DNA from: Pectobacterium brasiliense
GTDB lineage: Bacteria; Pseudomonadota; Gammaproteobacteria; Enterobacterales; Enterobacteriaceae
Reading direction: 5' to 3'
NCBI RefSeq assembly: GCF_013449685.1
Contig: NZ_JACDSF010000033.1
Location: 183 to 64,182 of the forward strand
DNA length: 64,000 bases
Part shown: positions 40,246-46,023 of the stretch, in pieces
Layout: every line of letters starts with the position of its first letter
Numbering within the stretch: the first letter of the stretch is position 1
Notes under the pieces: generated by a model
Seen by the model: the letters and a program-made list of their open reading frames with translations, nothing else
Databases searched by the model: none
What the model was told of the DNA's origin: nothing
Translations under genes and position numbers: made by a program

Positions 40246-40661
40246 GAAAACCTCCAAGTTTATTGAGAATAATATGGCGAATAACTACGCAGTGAATAAC
40301 CTGCAAACCGCTATTCGAAATTCTGCTCGCCAATGTGTAAACGTCACCTGATAAAATCCATCGTTTTAAACGACTACGCGATAGCTGGCACACAGGCATA
40401 AAATCGGCGGGTAGCTTATCAGATTTTGTTCGTTTTGTGGGGGAATAAGCGGAAAATCTTATTTAACAAAATGATAAATAAGTGTTTTTTTATTAAATAC
40501 AAATTTTTCATTTGCAATCGCGAAGTCTAAACAACGCTGCCAGAGAATAATCTATCCTCGGAATTAGCCTGCGCTGAACCGTCAGATCCCTGGAAGCCGA
40601 CGAGGGCCGTCGGCTTCTAAGTAAGCGAAATTAAAGCATATTGACGCCGTTAAGCCAGCGG
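40246..40661. other. sspA upstream region and 3' flank of the sugar-acid block
   Basis: AT-rich around 40440-40520, which fits the native sspA promoter (minus strand). The left boundary of the accessory block probably lies within this interval. One strong hairpin (40593-40617) follows the rspA-like gene. No gene is seen. Confidence 0.4.
40593..40617 (-). terminator. Hairpin downstream of the rspA-like gene
   Basis: A perfect 10-base stem GAAGCCGACG (40593-40602) / CGTCGGCTTC (40608-40617) with a 5-base loop, 45 bases after the stop. The following T-run is missing, so it may act with Rho or stabilise the 3' end. Confidence 0.55.
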
Positions 40662-41918
40662 TTAAGGTCGTGCCGCCGTGCCATCCGGCAAGCGTGCATT
40701 CGTCCATGACGGCAATCCACCTTCAACAGGGAATTGCTTCGCTTTTTGCTCATCAATATCAATCCCTAATCCTGGCTTATCGTTCAGGTACGCGTATCCG
40801 CCTTCAATATCCGGGCAGCCGGGGAAAACGTCCCGTAGCGCTTCATTCATCGGCGTATATTCTTGAATACCCAGATTAGTAATGCTCATATCAATGTGCA
40901 TATTCGCGACTACACCGACGGGTGAGATATCCCCTGGCCCATGCCAGGCGGTTCTCACACCATGAAATTCGGCGAGTGTCGCCAGTTTTTTGGCTGGCGT
41001 AATCCCACCGATCATACTGATATGGCAGCGAATAAAATCAATCAGATGATTGGTTATCAGGTGCTTGTATTCGGCAACATGAACAAACAGTTCTCCCATG
41101 GCGATTGGGGTGGATGTTTGTTGGCGCATCACGCTAAGGAAATCAACATTCTCTGGAGCAACGGGGTCTTCAAGATAAAAGAGCTTGTAATCTTCCAAAG
41201 ACTTCGCCATTTGCAACGCGGTAACCGGCGATACTCGCTCATGAACATCATGAATAAATTCAACATCAAACCCAATCTTATTGCGCAGATGATCGAAAAA
41301 AGCCGGAATGCTTCTGGCATAAGCATCAGGATCGAAATAAATGCCGGGCGTCTTCGTTCTTGGTGAGCGCTTCGGCGTGATATTGGCTTTATCCAACTGA
41401 GTGGCAATCAGTTTGAGGTCTTCCGTCCCGGCTCCACCGTACATGCCCATCTGACAACGAACATACTGATACCCTTCTTCTATCGCCGCACGGATGTTAT
41501 CTTCCGCCGCAACCGCATCCGCACCATCGCAATGACGATAAAGCGGAATACCGTCACGGCATTTGCCGCCCAGCAATTCATAGACCGGCAGGTTAGCGAC
41601 TTTACCCTTGATATCCCACAGCGCCATATCGATAGCCGAGATCGCATTGTTCATCACCGGCCCATTGCGCCAATAGCCGCTCACGACGGAGGACTGCCAG
41701 ATATCTTCAATACGAGAAGGATCTTTCCCGATCAGGAAAGGCTTCATGTACTCATTAATGGCCGCTTCAACCGCGAAAATACGTTGGGTGAAGGTTGCAC
41801 ATCCCAAACCATAAAGCCCCGGCTCGTTGGTTTCTATCTTCACGACCACCAGATCAATGCCACCAGGCGCCGTCAGAATCGTTTTTACGTTTGTGATTTT
41901 CAGGTTACTCACTTTCAC
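40662..41918 (-). CDS. RspA/D-mannonate dehydratase-family enolase-superfamily protein
   Basis: Enolase-superfamily acid-sugar dehydratase-like protein of the RspA/ManD subgroup, 418 residues. The N-terminal capping domain (1-120) is followed by a TIM barrel. Mg ligands and catalytic His are recognisable: FIHDVHERVSP (Asp and His, about 215-225), FYLEDPVAPE (about 241-250) and AMGELFVHVAEY (about 266-277). TAWHGPGDISPVG (about 319-331) carries the barrel His. From what is known of this subgroup, high-activity mannonate dehydratases tend to have Ala where low-activity or other members have Pro; here it is Pro (HGPGD). It may thus have weak mannonate activity, dehydrate another aldonate, or do something else. 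Divergent from an SDR and MFS gene of the same cassette. Confidence 0.85.
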   Translation of the reverse strand: MKVSNLKITNVKTILTAPGGIDLVVVKIETNEPGLYGLGCATFTQRIFAVEAAINEYMKPFLIGKDPSRIEDIWQSSVVSGYWRNGPVMNNAISAIDMALWDIKGKVANLPVYELLGGKCRDGIPLYRHCDGADAVAAEDNIRAAIEEGYQYVRCQMGMYGGAGTEDLKLIATQLDKANITPKRSPRTKTPGIYFDPDAYARSIPAFFDHLRNKIGFDVEFIHDVHERVSPVTALQMAKSLEDYKLFYLEDPVAPENVDFLSVMRQQTSTPIAMGELFVHVAEYKHLITNHLIDFIRCHISMIGGITPAKKLATLAEFHGVRTAWHGPGDISPVGVVANMHIDMSITNLGIQEYTPMNEALRDVFPGCPDIEGGYAYLNDKPGLGIDIDEQKAKQFPVEGGLPSWTNARLPDGTAARP

Positions 41919-41980
41919 TCCTCAACTCAGCGAATTTACCGCATGTCATACCGTTGTGGATAACATTCCATACTTGTAAG

Positions 41981-41991
41981 TTGTCCTACAA
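41981..41991 (-). promoter_or_regulatory. GntR(FadR-type) operator candidate 1
   Basis: Minus strand TTGTAGGACAA fits the FadR-subfamily pattern TNGTNNNACNA at every fixed position. It lies 63 bases upstream of the rspA-like ATG. The wider GTCCTACAAATTA (41983-41995) matches 12 of 13 bases with site 2. Confidence 0.6.
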
Positions 41992-42042
41992 ATTAGGTGT
42001 GTTATATCACGGTTTTTTTTACAGAGTACCGTTGCGTTCTCC

Positions 42043-42064
42043 ATTATGTGATAGAGATCAAATT
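42043..42064 (+). promoter_or_regulatory. CRP-cAMP site
   Basis: Core TGTGA (42047-42051), six bases, TCAAA (42058-42062), against consensus TGTGA-N6-TCACA; the flanks are AT-rich. It lies between the two operator candidates, suited to activating one or both divergent promoters. Confidence 0.6.
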
Positions 42065-42213
42065 GTCACCCATTTAAAAAATAAACCATTAATATTTAAT
42101 ATCTTATTTTAATTTAAGCGATAACCATACAGAGATGTTTGTGATCCTTGTTGCAAATTTATGGGTAAGATATTGATTTTATCAAGGCGAAAATCCAACC
42201 TTAAATAAGACAG

Positions 42214-42224
42214 TCGTCATACAA
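42214..42224 (-). promoter_or_regulatory. GntR(FadR-type) operator candidate 2
   Basis: Minus strand TTGTATGACGA fits TNGTNNNACNA fully. It lies 22 bases before the SDR start codon, a repressing position. Confidence 0.6.
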
Positions 42225-42246
42225 ATTAAACGAGTGAGGAAACAAC

Positions 42247-43014
42247 ATGACCGCTTTATTTGATTTAACTGGGAAAACGGCGCTGGTAACGGGCTCTGCA
42301 CGTGGACTGGGCTTTGCCTACGCAGAGGGCCTTGCCGCTGCGGGCGCACGGGTCATCTTGAATGATATTCGCGACACGCTGCTGGTCGCATCAGTGGATA
42401 CGCTAACAAGCAAAGGCTACGATGCACACGGTGTCGCTTTCGACGTCACCAATGAACAGGCGATTGAGGAAGCTTTTAGCAAACTCGATGCAGAAGGGAT
42501 CAGTGTCGACATCCTGATCAATAACGCTGGAATTCAGTACCGCAAACCGATGGTCGAACTGGAGTTGGAAAACTGGCAGAAGGTAATCGACACCAACCTG
42601 ACCAGCGCATTCTTGGTCTCTCGCACTGCGGCGAAACGGATGATTGCACGCAACAGTGGCGGCAAAATCATTAATATCGGCTCACTCACCAGCCAGGCGG
42701 CCCGCCCGACCGTTGCCCCGTATACGGCGGCAAAAGGTGGCATCAAAATGCTAACCTGCTCGATGGCCGCAGAATGGGCGCAGTTTAATATCCAGACCAA
42801 CGCCATTGGGCCCGGCTACATTCTGACAGACATGAACACCGCACTTATCGAAGACAAGCAGTTCGATAGCTGGGTGAAAAGCAGTAATCCTTCTCAGCGT
42901 TGGGGTCGTCCTGAAGAGCTCATCGGCACCGCCGTCTTCTTATCATCCAAATCGTCAGATTATATCAACGGGCAAATTATTTACGTTGATGGCGGCTGGC
43001 TCGCAGTACTGTAA
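42247..43014 (+). CDS. Short-chain dehydrogenase, gluconate 5-dehydrogenase (IdnO)-like
   Basis: Cytosolic NAD(P)-dependent SDR, 255 residues, most like IdnO/5-keto-D-gluconate 5-reductases. The cofactor motif TGSARGLGFAYAEGL (about 15-29), NNAG (about 91-94), catalytic Ser (INIGSLTSQ, about 145) and YTAAKGG Tyr/Lys (about 158-164) are intact. The C-terminus shows WGRPEELIGTAVFLSSKSSDYI and the VDGGW end. In this cassette it probably interconverts an aldonate or ketoaldonate that enters through the MFS permease; the exact sugar acid is unknown. Its promoter region holds an operator candidate 22 bases upstream. The next gene follows after a hairpin. Confidence 0.85.
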   Translation: MTALFDLTGKTALVTGSARGLGFAYAEGLAAAGARVILNDIRDTLLVASVDTLTSKGYDAHGVAFDVTNEQAIEEAFSKLDAEGISVDILINNAGIQYRKPMVELELENWQKVIDTNLTSAFLVSRTAAKRMIARNSGGKIINIGSLTSQAARPTVAPYTAAKGGIKMLTCSMAAEWAQFNIQTNAIGPGYILTDMNTALIEDKQFDSWVKSSNPSQRWGRPEELIGTAVFLSSKSSDYINGQIIYVDGGWLAVL

Positions 43015-43022
43015 TTTATATC

Positions 43023-43051
43023 TACTGCCATTCGTTAAGTGAGTGGCAGTA
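43023..43051 (+). other. Intercistronic hairpin between SDR and MFS genes
   Basis: TACTGCCA (43023-43030) pairs perfectly with TGGCAGTA (43044-43051). No T-run follows, and the MFS start is only 19 bases away. This looks like an mRNA-stabilising or processing stem within the operon rather than a terminator. Confidence 0.5.
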
Positions 43052-43069
43052 ATTAAACGGGAAAACATC

Positions 43070-44356
43070 ATGAATCAAAACATACAAAAACAGTTAGCAC
43101 CGATTCGCTGGCGTAAGTTAATTCCACTGGCGTTTATTACCTATAGTCTTGCCTATCTCGATCGCGCTAATTATGGATTTGGCGCAGCTTCCGGTCTCGC
43201 TGAGGATCTCAATATCACACCAGGGATTTCTTCACTACTAGGCGCTTTGTTCTTCCTTGGGTATTTTTTCTTTCAGGTGCCCGGTGGTATTTACGCTGAA
43301 AAAAGAAGTGCCAAGACGCTTATTTTTTGGAGTTTAATTCTCTGGGGAATATTAGCAACGGCGACCGGCATGGTCCACGACGTTAAGGTGCTGGCAGTCA
43401 TTCGCTTCCTGCTTGGTGTGGCTGAAAGTGTTGTGATGCCTGCCATGCTTGTTTTTTTAAGTCATTGGTTTACTAAGAAAGAAAGGTCAAAAGCCAACAC
43501 CTTCCTTTTTCTTGGCAACCCCATCACCGTACTTTGGATGTCAGTGCTGTCAGGCTATCTCGTGGAGGCCTTTGGCTGGCGCGGTATGTTTATTATCGAA
43601 GGTGTCCCCGCCATAATCTGGGCGGCTATATGGTGGTTTGTTTTTGTTGACCGCCCCACGGATGCGAAATGGTTAACAGAACAAGAAAAAGAAGATATTG
43701 AAGCAGCACTGGCAGCAGAACAAACCAATATTAAAGAAATTAAAAATTACAGCGAAGCATTTCGTTCCAGCAAAGTCTTATCACTCTCCTTTATACATTT
43801 CTTCTGGAATATTGGGATGTATGGTTTCATTATGTGGCTACCCTCTATTTTGAAATCAGCATCTGGATTGAGCATCGTAGCAACAGGTTGGCTATCTGCA
43901 GCACCCTACTTATTAGCTGTGCCACTTATGCTGGGTGCGTCTTGGTATTCAGATAAATTTCTAAACCGTAAAATCATTGTTCTTCTGTTTTTAGGATTGG
44001 GCGCAATCTGCTTTATTGGGTCGTTTACCGTTGGAGCATCCAATTTCTGGCTCTCATATGTCTTGTTGATGGTTGCCGGTGGCGCGATGTATACCCCTTA
44101 CGGACCATTCTTTGCCGCAATACCGGAAATGATCCCGCGTAATGTGATGGCTGGTGCGATGGCATTTATCGTAAGTTTCGGCGCTCTAGGTTCGTTCGTC
44201 GGCTCATGGATTGTCGGTTATCTGAATGGCTTAACGGGTGGCCCAAGTGCTTCTTATGTCTTCATGGGGACCTCACTGGTTGTGGCAGTGCTACTCACCT
44301 CACTCACCTCATTTAGCACTAAAAAATCCACGGCAGCAAAAATACAAACTTGTTAA
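43070..44356 (+). CDS. MFS transporter, anion:cation symporter (ACS) family
   Basis: Inner-membrane secondary transporter of the ACS family (hexuronate, galactarate, tartrate and phthalate permeases), 428 residues with 12 predicted transmembrane segments. Family marks are AYLDRANYGFGAASGLAEDL (about 29-48, replacing the usual DR-x-N signature), GYFFFQVPGG (about 71-80), FLLGVAESVVMPAML (about 115-129) and WLPSILKS (about 260-267). The start at 43070 follows a weak GGGA ribosome binding site; an ATG nine codons upstream is less likely. The gene is visibly more AT-rich than the flanking housekeeping genes. Likely substrate: the sugar acid handled by the cassette. Confidence 0.87.
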   Translation: MNQNIQKQLAPIRWRKLIPLAFITYSLAYLDRANYGFGAASGLAEDLNITPGISSLLGALFFLGYFFFQVPGGIYAEKRSAKTLIFWSLILWGILATATGMVHDVKVLAVIRFLLGVAESVVMPAMLVFLSHWFTKKERSKANTFLFLGNPITVLWMSVLSGYLVEAFGWRGMFIIEGVPAIIWAAIWWFVFVDRPTDAKWLTEQEKEDIEAALAAEQTNIKEIKNYSEAFRSSKVLSLSFIHFFWNIGMYGFIMWLPSILKSASGLSIVATGWLSAAPYLLAVPLMLGASWYSDKFLNRKIIVLLFLGLGAICFIGSFTVGASNFWLSYVLLMVAGGAMYTPYGPFFAAIPEMIPRNVMAGAMAFIVSFGALGSFVGSWIVGYLNGLTGGPSASYVFMGTSLVVAVLLTSLTSFSTKKSTAAKIQTC

Positions 44357-44362
44357 GATCAG

Positions 44363-44388
44363 GCGCCCGCCTGGGCGCTTTGATTTTA
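44363..44388 (+). terminator. Terminator after the MFS gene
   Basis: GCGCCC (44363-44368), loop GCCT, GGGCGC (44373-44378), then TTTGATTTT. It separates the SDR-MFS operon from the regulator gene. Confidence 0.8.
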
Positions 44389-44399
44389 AAAGTGATATA

Positions 44400-44410
44400 T
44401 TGTATGACGT
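44400..44410 (+). promoter_or_regulatory. GntR(FadR-type) operator candidate 3
   Basis: TTGTATGACGT: the first ten bases are identical to site 2 in the divergent region. The last position deviates from TNGTNNNACNA. It lies 27 bases before the start of the regulator gene, suggesting autoregulation. Confidence 0.5.
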
Positions 44411-44436
44411 TTCTAAACTGACTACGGATACCTATA

Positions 44437-45195
44437 TTGAGCATAAAATCCATTCAAAAACAGAATGTTGTAAATGAAATTTATGATCAGATAAGCGGAA
44501 AATTGCTGGATGGTAGTTGGGCGCCAGGTAGCCGTTTACCCTCAGAAGCCGAGCTCGCCACCTCATTTAACGTCAGCCGAGTCAGCGTTCGCAGCGCGGT
44601 GCAACGTTTTCGTGATCTGGGAATTGTTGTGACCCGGCAGGGCAGCGGCAGCTATGTGAGCGAAAACTTCACGTCTCAGATGTTGAGTAACGATCCCCGC
44701 CCGATCATGCATCTTAGCCGCGAAGAGTTTCACGATATGATGATTTTCCGTCAGACAGTGGAGTTCAAATGCGTGGAGCTCGCAGTTACACACGCCACCG
44801 CTGACGACATCCGCCAGCTAGAAGACGCACTGAACAGTATGCTGATCAACAGAGGCGACTACAAAAAGTATTCGGAAGCGGACTACGAGTTCCATCTGGC
44901 GATTGTCAGGGCATCGCACAACAGCGTTTTTTACAACGTGATGAGCTCGATTAAAGACATCTATTACTACTACCTTGAAGAGCTTAACCGTGCGCTCGGT
45001 ATCACCCTCGAGAGTGTGGAGGCTCATATCAAGGTCTACATGTCGATCAAAAATCGTGATGCCAGTACGGCGGTAGAAGTGCTCAATGAAGCAATGTCAG
45101 GAAATATTATTGCCATCGAAAAAATCAAATCAACAGATACAGCAGCTATAAAAGATCCGCCAGTTGCAGACTCAACTGGCGAAATGAATCAGTAG
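44437..45195 (+). CDS. GntR-family regulator, FadR (FCD) subfamily
   Basis: Cytosolic repressor, 252 residues. The wHTH occupies about 10-75 (LLDGSWAPGSRLPSEAELAT, then FNVSRVSVRSAVQRFRDLGI as the recognition region). The all-helical FCD effector domain follows (FRQTVEFKCVELAV; DYEFHLAIVRASHNSVFYNV; SVEAHIKVYMSIKNRDASTA). The Asp and His residues expected to bind a metal and an acidic effector are visible (FHLAIVRA and EAHIKVY). Only a TTG start at 44437 is available ahead of the conserved domain. The Pro/Asp/Ser tail (residues 232-252) is unusual. It presumably controls the neighbouring dehydratase, dehydrogenase and permease genes, responding to a sugar acid. Confidence 0.87.
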   Translation: MSIKSIQKQNVVNEIYDQISGKLLDGSWAPGSRLPSEAELATSFNVSRVSVRSAVQRFRDLGIVVTRQGSGSYVSENFTSQMLSNDPRPIMHLSREEFHDMMIFRQTVEFKCVELAVTHATADDIRQLEDALNSMLINRGDYKKYSEADYEFHLAIVRASHNSVFYNVMSSIKDIYYYYLEELNRALGITLESVEAHIKVYMSIKNRDASTAVEVLNEAMSGNIIAIEKIKSTDTAAIKDPPVADSTGEMNQ

Positions 45196-45216
45196 GCAGT
45201 ACCTAACGGATAAAAG

Positions 45217-45966
45217 GGTTCTGTTGCATTAAGCGTTAGCTCAGGTAATATGCTGTTTTTTCACAATGTTGCCTGACCATGTCTCTGATCAAAAGATCCT
45301 TTAAACGCCTGCATTACCCCGTCGATGTCATTGCTCAGTGTGTTCGCTTGTATCTGGCTTATGCCCTGATCCCCGCGATCTGGAAGAGATGATGGCTGAG
45401 CGCGGCATCCTCGCTGACCATTCCACACCTCATCGTTGGGTTATCCGCTTGGTGCCACAACTGGACCAGGCCTTTCACCGTCATAAACGTCCCGTGGGAC
45501 GCCGCTGGCGAATGGATGAGACATACATTAAAGTTAAAGGGCAATGGAGATACCTGCACTGGGCAGTGGGCCAGACGATTGATTTTCTGCTGACGGCGAA
45601 ACGGGATACTGCAGTTGCACTGAGCTTTTTCAAAAAAGCCATACATCACCATGGCGAACCGGAAGTCGTCACCCTTCATAAAAGTGGCGCTAATATACAG
45701 CGGCTCTGACCACACTCAATAGCGATAAAGCGGATGAAGAGACCATTACGGTCAAGCAGTGTAAATGCCTGAATAACTTTGTTGAGCAGAAGCACCGAAA
45801 CATCAAACGTCGAACACGCTCGATGCTGGGATTCAAATCGTTTCGATGGGCACAGACAATTCTGGCTGGCATCGGGCTGCTCCACATGATAGGTAAAAGG
45901 CAATATCAACATCCGGAAGGTGATGGAATGTCACCTACAGAACAGTTTTATTTACTGGTGGCCTGA
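45217..45966 (+). mobile_element. Decayed IS6-family (IS26-like) insertion sequence
   Basis: A left end GGTTCTGTTGCA at 45217 resembles IS6-family inverted repeats. The transposase relic follows (45279-45966). No matching right repeat (TGCAACAGAACC) is found before the rpsI terminator, so the right end is lost. It marks the right border of the accessory block between the GntR regulator and rpsI. Confidence 0.8.
45279..45966 (+). pseudogene. IS6-family DDE transposase, multiply disrupted
   Basis: Starts SLIKRSFKRLHYPVDVIAQC at 45279, then a shift near 45370-45385 replaces the expected YALSYRDLEEMM. It continues LEEMMAERGILADHSTPHRW and RRWRMDETYIKVKGQWRYLH with the first catalytic Asp. The expected DTDGQTIDF is shortened to VGQTIDF, a 9-base deletion. 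A 2-base insertion near 45695 ends the frame at SGANIQRL; the remainder (LNNFVEQKHRNIKRRTRSML, then GDGMSPTEQFYLLVA and stop) continues in another frame. At least two frameshifts and one deletion show that the element is dead. Confidence 0.88.
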
Positions 45967-46023
45967 ACAATCGACAACGCCAATTTTTGCTGGCTTGCCC
46001 CCGCTAATGCGACAAAGCCAAAT

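Follow-up and report, generated by a model that had tools for sequence, protein, structure and literature searches.

Two conserved operators predicted for the FadR-type GntR repressor of a mobile sugar-acid cassette in Pectobacterium brasiliense

A 64,000-nucleotide stretch of Pectobacterium brasiliense DNA (contig NZ_JACDSF010000033.1, positions 183 to 64,182; hereafter the window) carries a sugar-acid cassette in which the gene of an RspA-like dehydratase is divergent from those of a short-chain dehydrogenase/reductase (SDR), a major facilitator superfamily (MFS) transporter and a GntR regulator. Analysis of its intergenic DNA indicates that this mobile cassette is probably ruled by its own FadR-type GntR repressor, which would act through two operators, op1 and op2, each placed over the start of one divergent structural transcript. 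An earlier note had proposed three operators shared by one regulon, the third (site 3) serving autoregulation; the first two are upheld here and the third is not.

Operator op1 (41978-41994, core 41981-41991, minus strand) and operator op2 (42211-42227, core 42214-42224, plus strand) are 17 bp long, with the consensus AAGTTGTCNTACAACTT, and are predicted from conservation and matrix score to serve the dehydratase and the SDR-MFS transcripts, respectively. The three 11-mers of the earlier note do lie at 41981-41991 and 42214-42224 on the minus strand and at 44400-44410 on the plus strand; the first two fit the FadR-subfamily pattern TNGTNNNACNA fully and the third with one mismatch. Alignment of 16 divergent regulatory regions (divergons) of the window's architecture (the window and loci L009-L017, L020-L024 and L033, with regulators that share 78-96% identity with that of the window) revealed each operator in the same place in 16/16, op2 fitting TNGTNNNACNA fully in 12 of them. 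The spacer between the operators has diverged, except for a CRP-like core, a second CRP-like element and the probable dehydratase -10. In a second architecture (L025-L030, n = 6), op1 is present and an op2-like sequence, GTCATACA, lies near the SDR gene, and both operators are also kept in the three copies carried by E. coli (one on a plasmid, one on a chromosome) and by a K. oxytoca plasmid (3/3). Both also have the form described for the subfamily, a palindrome with GT and AC typically 3 nt apart (PMC4494728).

A symmetric 17-bp matrix was built from 12 distinct op1 and 9 distinct op2 sequences, the window and L009 being excluded. Within the 64-kb window it ranked op1 first (23.0) and op2 second (19.9), the next score being 10.4. 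Genome-wide, AAGTYGTCMTACAAMTT is matched with no more than one mismatch at only three places: op1, op2 and one site on contig C148. The case for the operators comes from the 17-mer and from relatives; the 11-mer shows no enrichment. TNGTNNNACNA alone was rejected as evidence (the window has 6 matches where 11.1 would be expected), as was TTGTANGACNW alone, with 32 matches across the 4.67 Mb of the genome where the reversed control has 137. This lack of enrichment is what a chance or promoter-sequence match without regulatory role would produce; with both operators conserved in every divergon amid a diverged spacer, and top-ranked across the genome, that explanation appears extremely improbable for op1 and op2, which very likely represent real operators, as predicted from the DNA. 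Outside the cassette and C148, the highest-scoring intergenic match in the loci that had been fetched on pattern matches (AATTTGAATTACAAATT, L115:1501, score 15.9) lies 36 nt before an open reading frame, and the other matches scoring at least 9 fall mostly within open reading frames.

The positions of the operators suggest how they could work. A probable extended -10 of the dehydratase promoter, TGATATAAC, lies at 42002-42007 (minus strand), TTATATCA being present, as counted by eye, in 11/16 aligned divergons, and the divergon alignment points to a possible SDR-MFS -10, TAAATA, at 42202-42207 (plus strand). With these assignments, op1 would cover the dehydratase start site and op2 the SDR-MFS start site. 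A regulator dimer bound to AAGTTGTCNTACAACTT over each start site would block RNA polymerase, and a hexonate (D-gluconate, 5-keto-D-gluconate or a close relative, a guess based on gene content) would bind the FCD domain and cause release. CRP would assist the dehydratase promoter. The regulator gene would be transcribed separately, behind a terminator, and would not be clearly autorepressed in this lineage. A sigma-70 promoter scan was uninformative (4 sites against 8.5 expected). DNA looping between op1 and op2 was considered and set aside, as their spacing varies among relatives with no clear helical phasing by eye.

Site 3 (44400-44410, plus strand) is a weak match lying over the probable extended -10 (TGATATATT, 44393-44401) of the regulator promoter. 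A regulon of three operators, with an autoregulatory one here, gains some appeal from this overlap, from the site 3 core (TTGTATGACGT), which is one base from that of op2 and identical in L015, and from the apparently ancestral self-site of the family described below. However, site 3 scores 4.4, ranking 27th in 64 kb, a level reached at about 420 positions per Mb; the chance of an equally good match at its place is 0.034 over 100 nt or 0.11 over 300 nt. It is absent from the 50 genome matches within three mismatches of the 17-mer, and its place reads differently in L009 (TTGTGTGGCGT), L020 (TTGTATAACGT) and L014 (TTACCCGACTG). Three operators therefore seem quite unlikely: site 3 is not supported as an operator, nor autoregulation through it, as far as the sequence can tell, and for this site alone a chance match is the likely explanation. 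The resulting two-operator scheme is an ordinary, well-supported repressor regulon, from which a doubtful autoregulation site has been removed; the hybrid origin of the cassette and the shared operator core are worth following.

Self-sites were also compared across the regulator family, using 49 distinct regulators (L038, from the window's own genome, the split matches L033 and L054, and nine duplicates, L027, L039-L043 and L045-L047, were dropped; L143 and L142 apparently correspond to the contigs of L009 and L015). A strong site (score at least 11) stands within 300 nt upstream of the regulator gene in 26 of the 32 that fall outside the window's clade, compared with 0.7% of random 300-nt stretches drawn from the window, its two operators included. 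Since this matrix, derived from divergons only, finds strong sites at regulator genes outside the clade, the motif appears tied to the regulator. Within the clade, only 2/17 have a strong self-site (L018 and L019), both with the regulator divergent from the dehydratase gene; where the regulator gene lies at the cassette end, the count is 0/15. In 13 of the 26 lineages the self-site stands about 30 nt before the start codon, whereas the site 3 core begins 37 nt before it. The self-site thus seems to be an ancestral trait that disappeared, or became much weaker, in cassettes ending with the regulator gene, although the tree does not separate gain from loss; the clade was taken from a quick-search tree (Shimodaira-Hasegawa-like approximate likelihood-ratio support, SH-aLRT, 95) with 19 open forks among 46 inner branches and long branches meeting.

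The C148 site raises the question of which protein binds op1 and op2. It reads AATTTGTCATACAACTT (41481-41497) and is flanked by genes for an MFS protein (TIGR00893, 401.3 bits, cut-off 395) and glucuronate isomerase (713.1 bits, cut-off 387), with the ExuR gene (531.6 bits, cut-off 396) adjoining. It has one mismatch to the 17-mer pattern and a score of 23.0, the same as op1, and is probably an ExuR operator, almost identical to op1 in sequence yet, by this assignment, serving a different regulator and hexuronate genes. A second apparent C148 site (41873-41889) falls within the glucuronate isomerase gene and was not counted. The E. coli repressor DgoR provides a further parallel: as proposed for the window's regulator, it is a FadR-type repressor of a hexonate operon with promoter-overlapping inverted repeats and the core TTGTNNNACAA, its IR1 containing TTGTAGTACAA, but it has two close repeats at one promoter and an identified effector, D-galactonate (PMC12288454). 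Because a near-identical operator stands beside ExuR and its core recurs in DgoR IR1, exclusiveness of the regulon is doubtful, and cross-talk between hexuronate control and the cassette is possible. An alternative goes further: op1 and op2 would be shared with, or mainly bound by, ExuR or a UxuR- or DgoR-like protein, wiring the cassette into hexuronate and hexonate control. In its favor, no place in the genome other than op1, op2 and the C148 site comes within one mismatch of the 17-mer, the CAT centre of AATTTGTCATACAACTT is also that of op2, and DgoR IR1 carries the related core. Against it, the motif stands at the linked regulator's own gene in most lineages outside the clade, and this regulator is only about 26% identical to ExuR over residues 15-212. 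We regard the alternative as rather doubtful and retain the linked regulator as the probable repressor. The near-identical operators of several FadR-type regulators suggest why hexonate and hexuronate genes are reportedly induced together in Salmonella, a so far unexplained observation known here from papers only.

CRP recognizes a TGTGA-N6-TCACA-like site upstream of promoters. The earlier note had placed such a site between the first two operators, at 42043-42064; a CRP-like site with a conserved core is there, one base further on (CRP-like site 1, 42044-42065; core TGTGATAGAGATCAAA, 42047-42062), when set in the register of the CRP consensus. In the window it reads TGTGA-N6-TCAAA; TGTGA-N6-TC is found in 16/16 divergons and TGTGA-N6-TCA in 12/16. 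The window has a single TGTGA-N6-TCANA, with 0.45 expected, and 32 of 100 shuffles contain one or more; the case for this site rests on position and conservation and not on rarity. It would lie about 60 bp upstream of the probable dehydratase start site, a geometry that is approximate. A second, weaker element, TGTGATCCTTGTTGCAAAT (42137-42158), absent from the earlier note, is indicated by conservation of GTGAT-N7-GCAAA in 13/16 divergons. In the L025-L030 divergons the exact first core was found in 0/6, a TGTGC variant being present in four. CRP control of the cassette is plausible.

The cassette resembles pChiA-pChiOTDR of the E. coli plasmid pChi7122-2 (NC_019037) and SEN1432-SEN1436 of Salmonella Enteritidis: the window shares with this type a dehydratase gene divergent from the SDR gene, an MFS gene and a linked FadR-type regulator, and differs in having no idnD among its cassette open reading frames. 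In pChiA-pChiOTDR, the dehydratase gene is likewise divergent from SDR, MFS and GntR genes, the SDR and regulator being 96% and 93% identical to the window's, and both operators are present; the plasmid differs by idnD, another MFS and a dehydratase of 80% identity. In 2012 this plasmid cassette was predicted to have two promoters, each with a CRP box of its own, and a GntR regulator acting in opposition (PMC3251573); what is new here is the operator assignment, the self-site loss and the hybrid origin. In SEN1432-SEN1436, compared by published description only, the dehydratase gene is divergent from a putative operon for a gluconate 5-dehydrogenase, a transporter and idnD; this system, unlike the window's, has idnD, is induced despite glucose, and was termed a hexonate utilization system belonging to a potential novel regulon (PMC5428311). 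A more distant likeness is offered by GntR1 and GntR2 of C. glutamicum, FadR-subfamily gluconate regulators whose binding gluconate inhibits and whose sites match TNGTNNNACNA with one or two mismatches, although organism and genes are distant (PMC2230225). No operator for the cassette's regulator was found in excerpts of the open-licence PMC literature, a search that did not extend to RegPrecise. The present work thus offers a concrete predicted operator, AAGTTGTCNTACAACTT, for an uncharacterized regulator whose cassette also occurs on a conjugative plasmid and, according to the papers cited, in Salmonella.

Several observations weigh against control by the linked repressor and CRP as proposed here. 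Within three mismatches of the 17-mer the genome has 50 matches against 146 for the reversed control, so that only the top ranks carry weight, and, with a matrix trained on orthologous sites, conservation and score do not count as two separate lines of evidence. FadR-type regulators have this operator core in common, and proteins other than the linked regulator are therefore candidate binders too. The self-site cut-off of 11 was chosen after the scores were seen, and site 3 may have a weak half-site role, as its left half recurs in L015, within the identical core, and in L088. CRP-like site 1 stands 2-3 bp off class I geometry relative to the probable -10. In the published work, SEN1433-6 were induced in glucose-rich egg white, indicating no substantial catabolite repression according to the authors (PMC5428311), and growth did not differ significantly with and without pChi7122-2 on the sugars tested (PMC3251573).

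The cassette (40400-45970) is inserted between sspA and rpsI, sspA presumably being the gene of the glutathione S-transferase-fold protein beside sspB. Among 25 genomes of the genus, five carry a different cassette (type B) at the same place, in which idnD and an SDR gene are divergent from a different regulator gene, followed by a dehydratase gene 97-98% identical to the window's. Two, the window's and G312 (apparently L009), carry a hybrid; G306 (apparently L015) has the other version (type A), with no sspA or rpsI within the 11 kb fetched, and in the remaining 17 the only matches are paralogues, none above about 45% identity. Eight type-A dehydratase genes are separated from five type-B ones by 98 sites, and at these the window revealed a recombination junction in the dehydratase gene (41768-41897): it is type B to 41768, mixed over 41822-41886 and type A from 41897. 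The junction of L009 is clean, compared with the window's patchy tract, with type B through 41886 and type A from 41897. In the DNA upstream of the dehydratase gene, the window agrees with type A rather than type B. The promoter, op1 and the start codon are therefore type-A, and the resident type B accounts for almost the whole dehydratase gene. A separate type-B regulator was not found, the window's genome having one regulator match at E <= 1e-40. The core TTGTCATACAA is present in 4/5 type-B loci, L141 having TTGTAATACAA in its place.

In the window, recombination joined the type-A promoter, operator, SDR, MFS and regulator part near the start codon to the resident type-B dehydratase gene; the hybrid illustrates how an incoming regulatory module may take possession of an enzyme gene already in place. 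A wider history is somewhat favored, in which two cassette versions were exchanged at the fixed insertion site sspA-rpsI by recombination near the first dehydratase codons. A mobile regulator-operator-transporter module would have taken over a resident enzyme with the help of an operator core common to type A, most of type B and ExuR, and decay of the self-site in this gene order would have left a repressor without feedback. At the cassette's right side lies an IS6-type (DDE_Tnp_IS240) transposase fragment (45338-45709, plus strand), and the transposase remnant apparently extends to about 45961, where collinearity with L009 returns.

A scan of GTDB representatives gave 29 loci, and of 295 genomes sampled from the window's family, 26 hold a relative (E <= 1e-40), one of them being the window's own genome. 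Of 5426 complete E. coli genomes, nine have any match and one has a match over 80% of the query. Three of the copies have mobile-element neighbours or a tRNA gene: L086, on an E. coli conjugative plasmid, and L088, on a K. oxytoca plasmid, each adjoin a Tn3 transposase, and L087, on an E. coli chromosome, adjoins tRNA-Phe and an integrase.

The dehydratase gene (40662-41918, minus strand) encodes a sugar-acid dehydratase of the enolase superfamily (ManD type), with the GTG at 41918 as the start of the open reading frame and a GTG at 41912 having, by inspection, a better-spaced ribosome site. Its score of 416.6 bits is under the NCBIfam ManD equivalog cut-off of 550. Its closest solved chains are 3tw9, 4ihc and 3t6c; we take 3tw9 and its relatives to be D-gluconate dehydratases. 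The Salmonella protein SEN1436 was termed a putative D-gluconate dehydratase, and precipitated (PMC6458216). The SDR (42247-43014, plus strand) is gluconate 5-dehydrogenase-like, and the best NCBIfam match of the MFS transporter (43070-44356, plus strand) is the D-galactonate transporter subfamily (245 bits, under the cut-off of 395). An intrinsic terminator-like hairpin (44353-44389, plus strand; -21.5 kcal/mol, z -4.73) separates the MFS gene from the regulator gene (44437-45195, plus strand), whose TTG start is common to close relatives. Assignment of the regulator to the FadR subfamily is borne out by an N-terminal GntR winged helix-turn-helix (PF00392, 63.0 bits, cut-off 27) and a C-terminal FCD effector domain (PF07729, 77.3 bits, cut-off 24.3). 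Among the best 25 of 28 families, the regulator reached no NCBIfam cut-off for NanR, LldR, PdhR, GlcC, UxuR or ExuR, the best being NanR (98.9 bits against 260) and the other five likewise far under theirs. As none of the four proteins reached an NCBIfam cut-off among the matches listed, their functions are given at family level only.

An idnD-bearing gene set fits the route from L-idonate through 5-keto-D-gluconate and D-gluconate to 2-keto-3-deoxy-D-gluconate. Four-gene cassettes without idnD also occur in L087 and L088, which makes the idnD-less form a variant. Five relatives (L012, L025-L027 and L029) have both kinds of MFS gene together with idnD, the MFS match of L027 being partial; given such relatives, the four-gene and five-gene cassettes may derive from a larger one.

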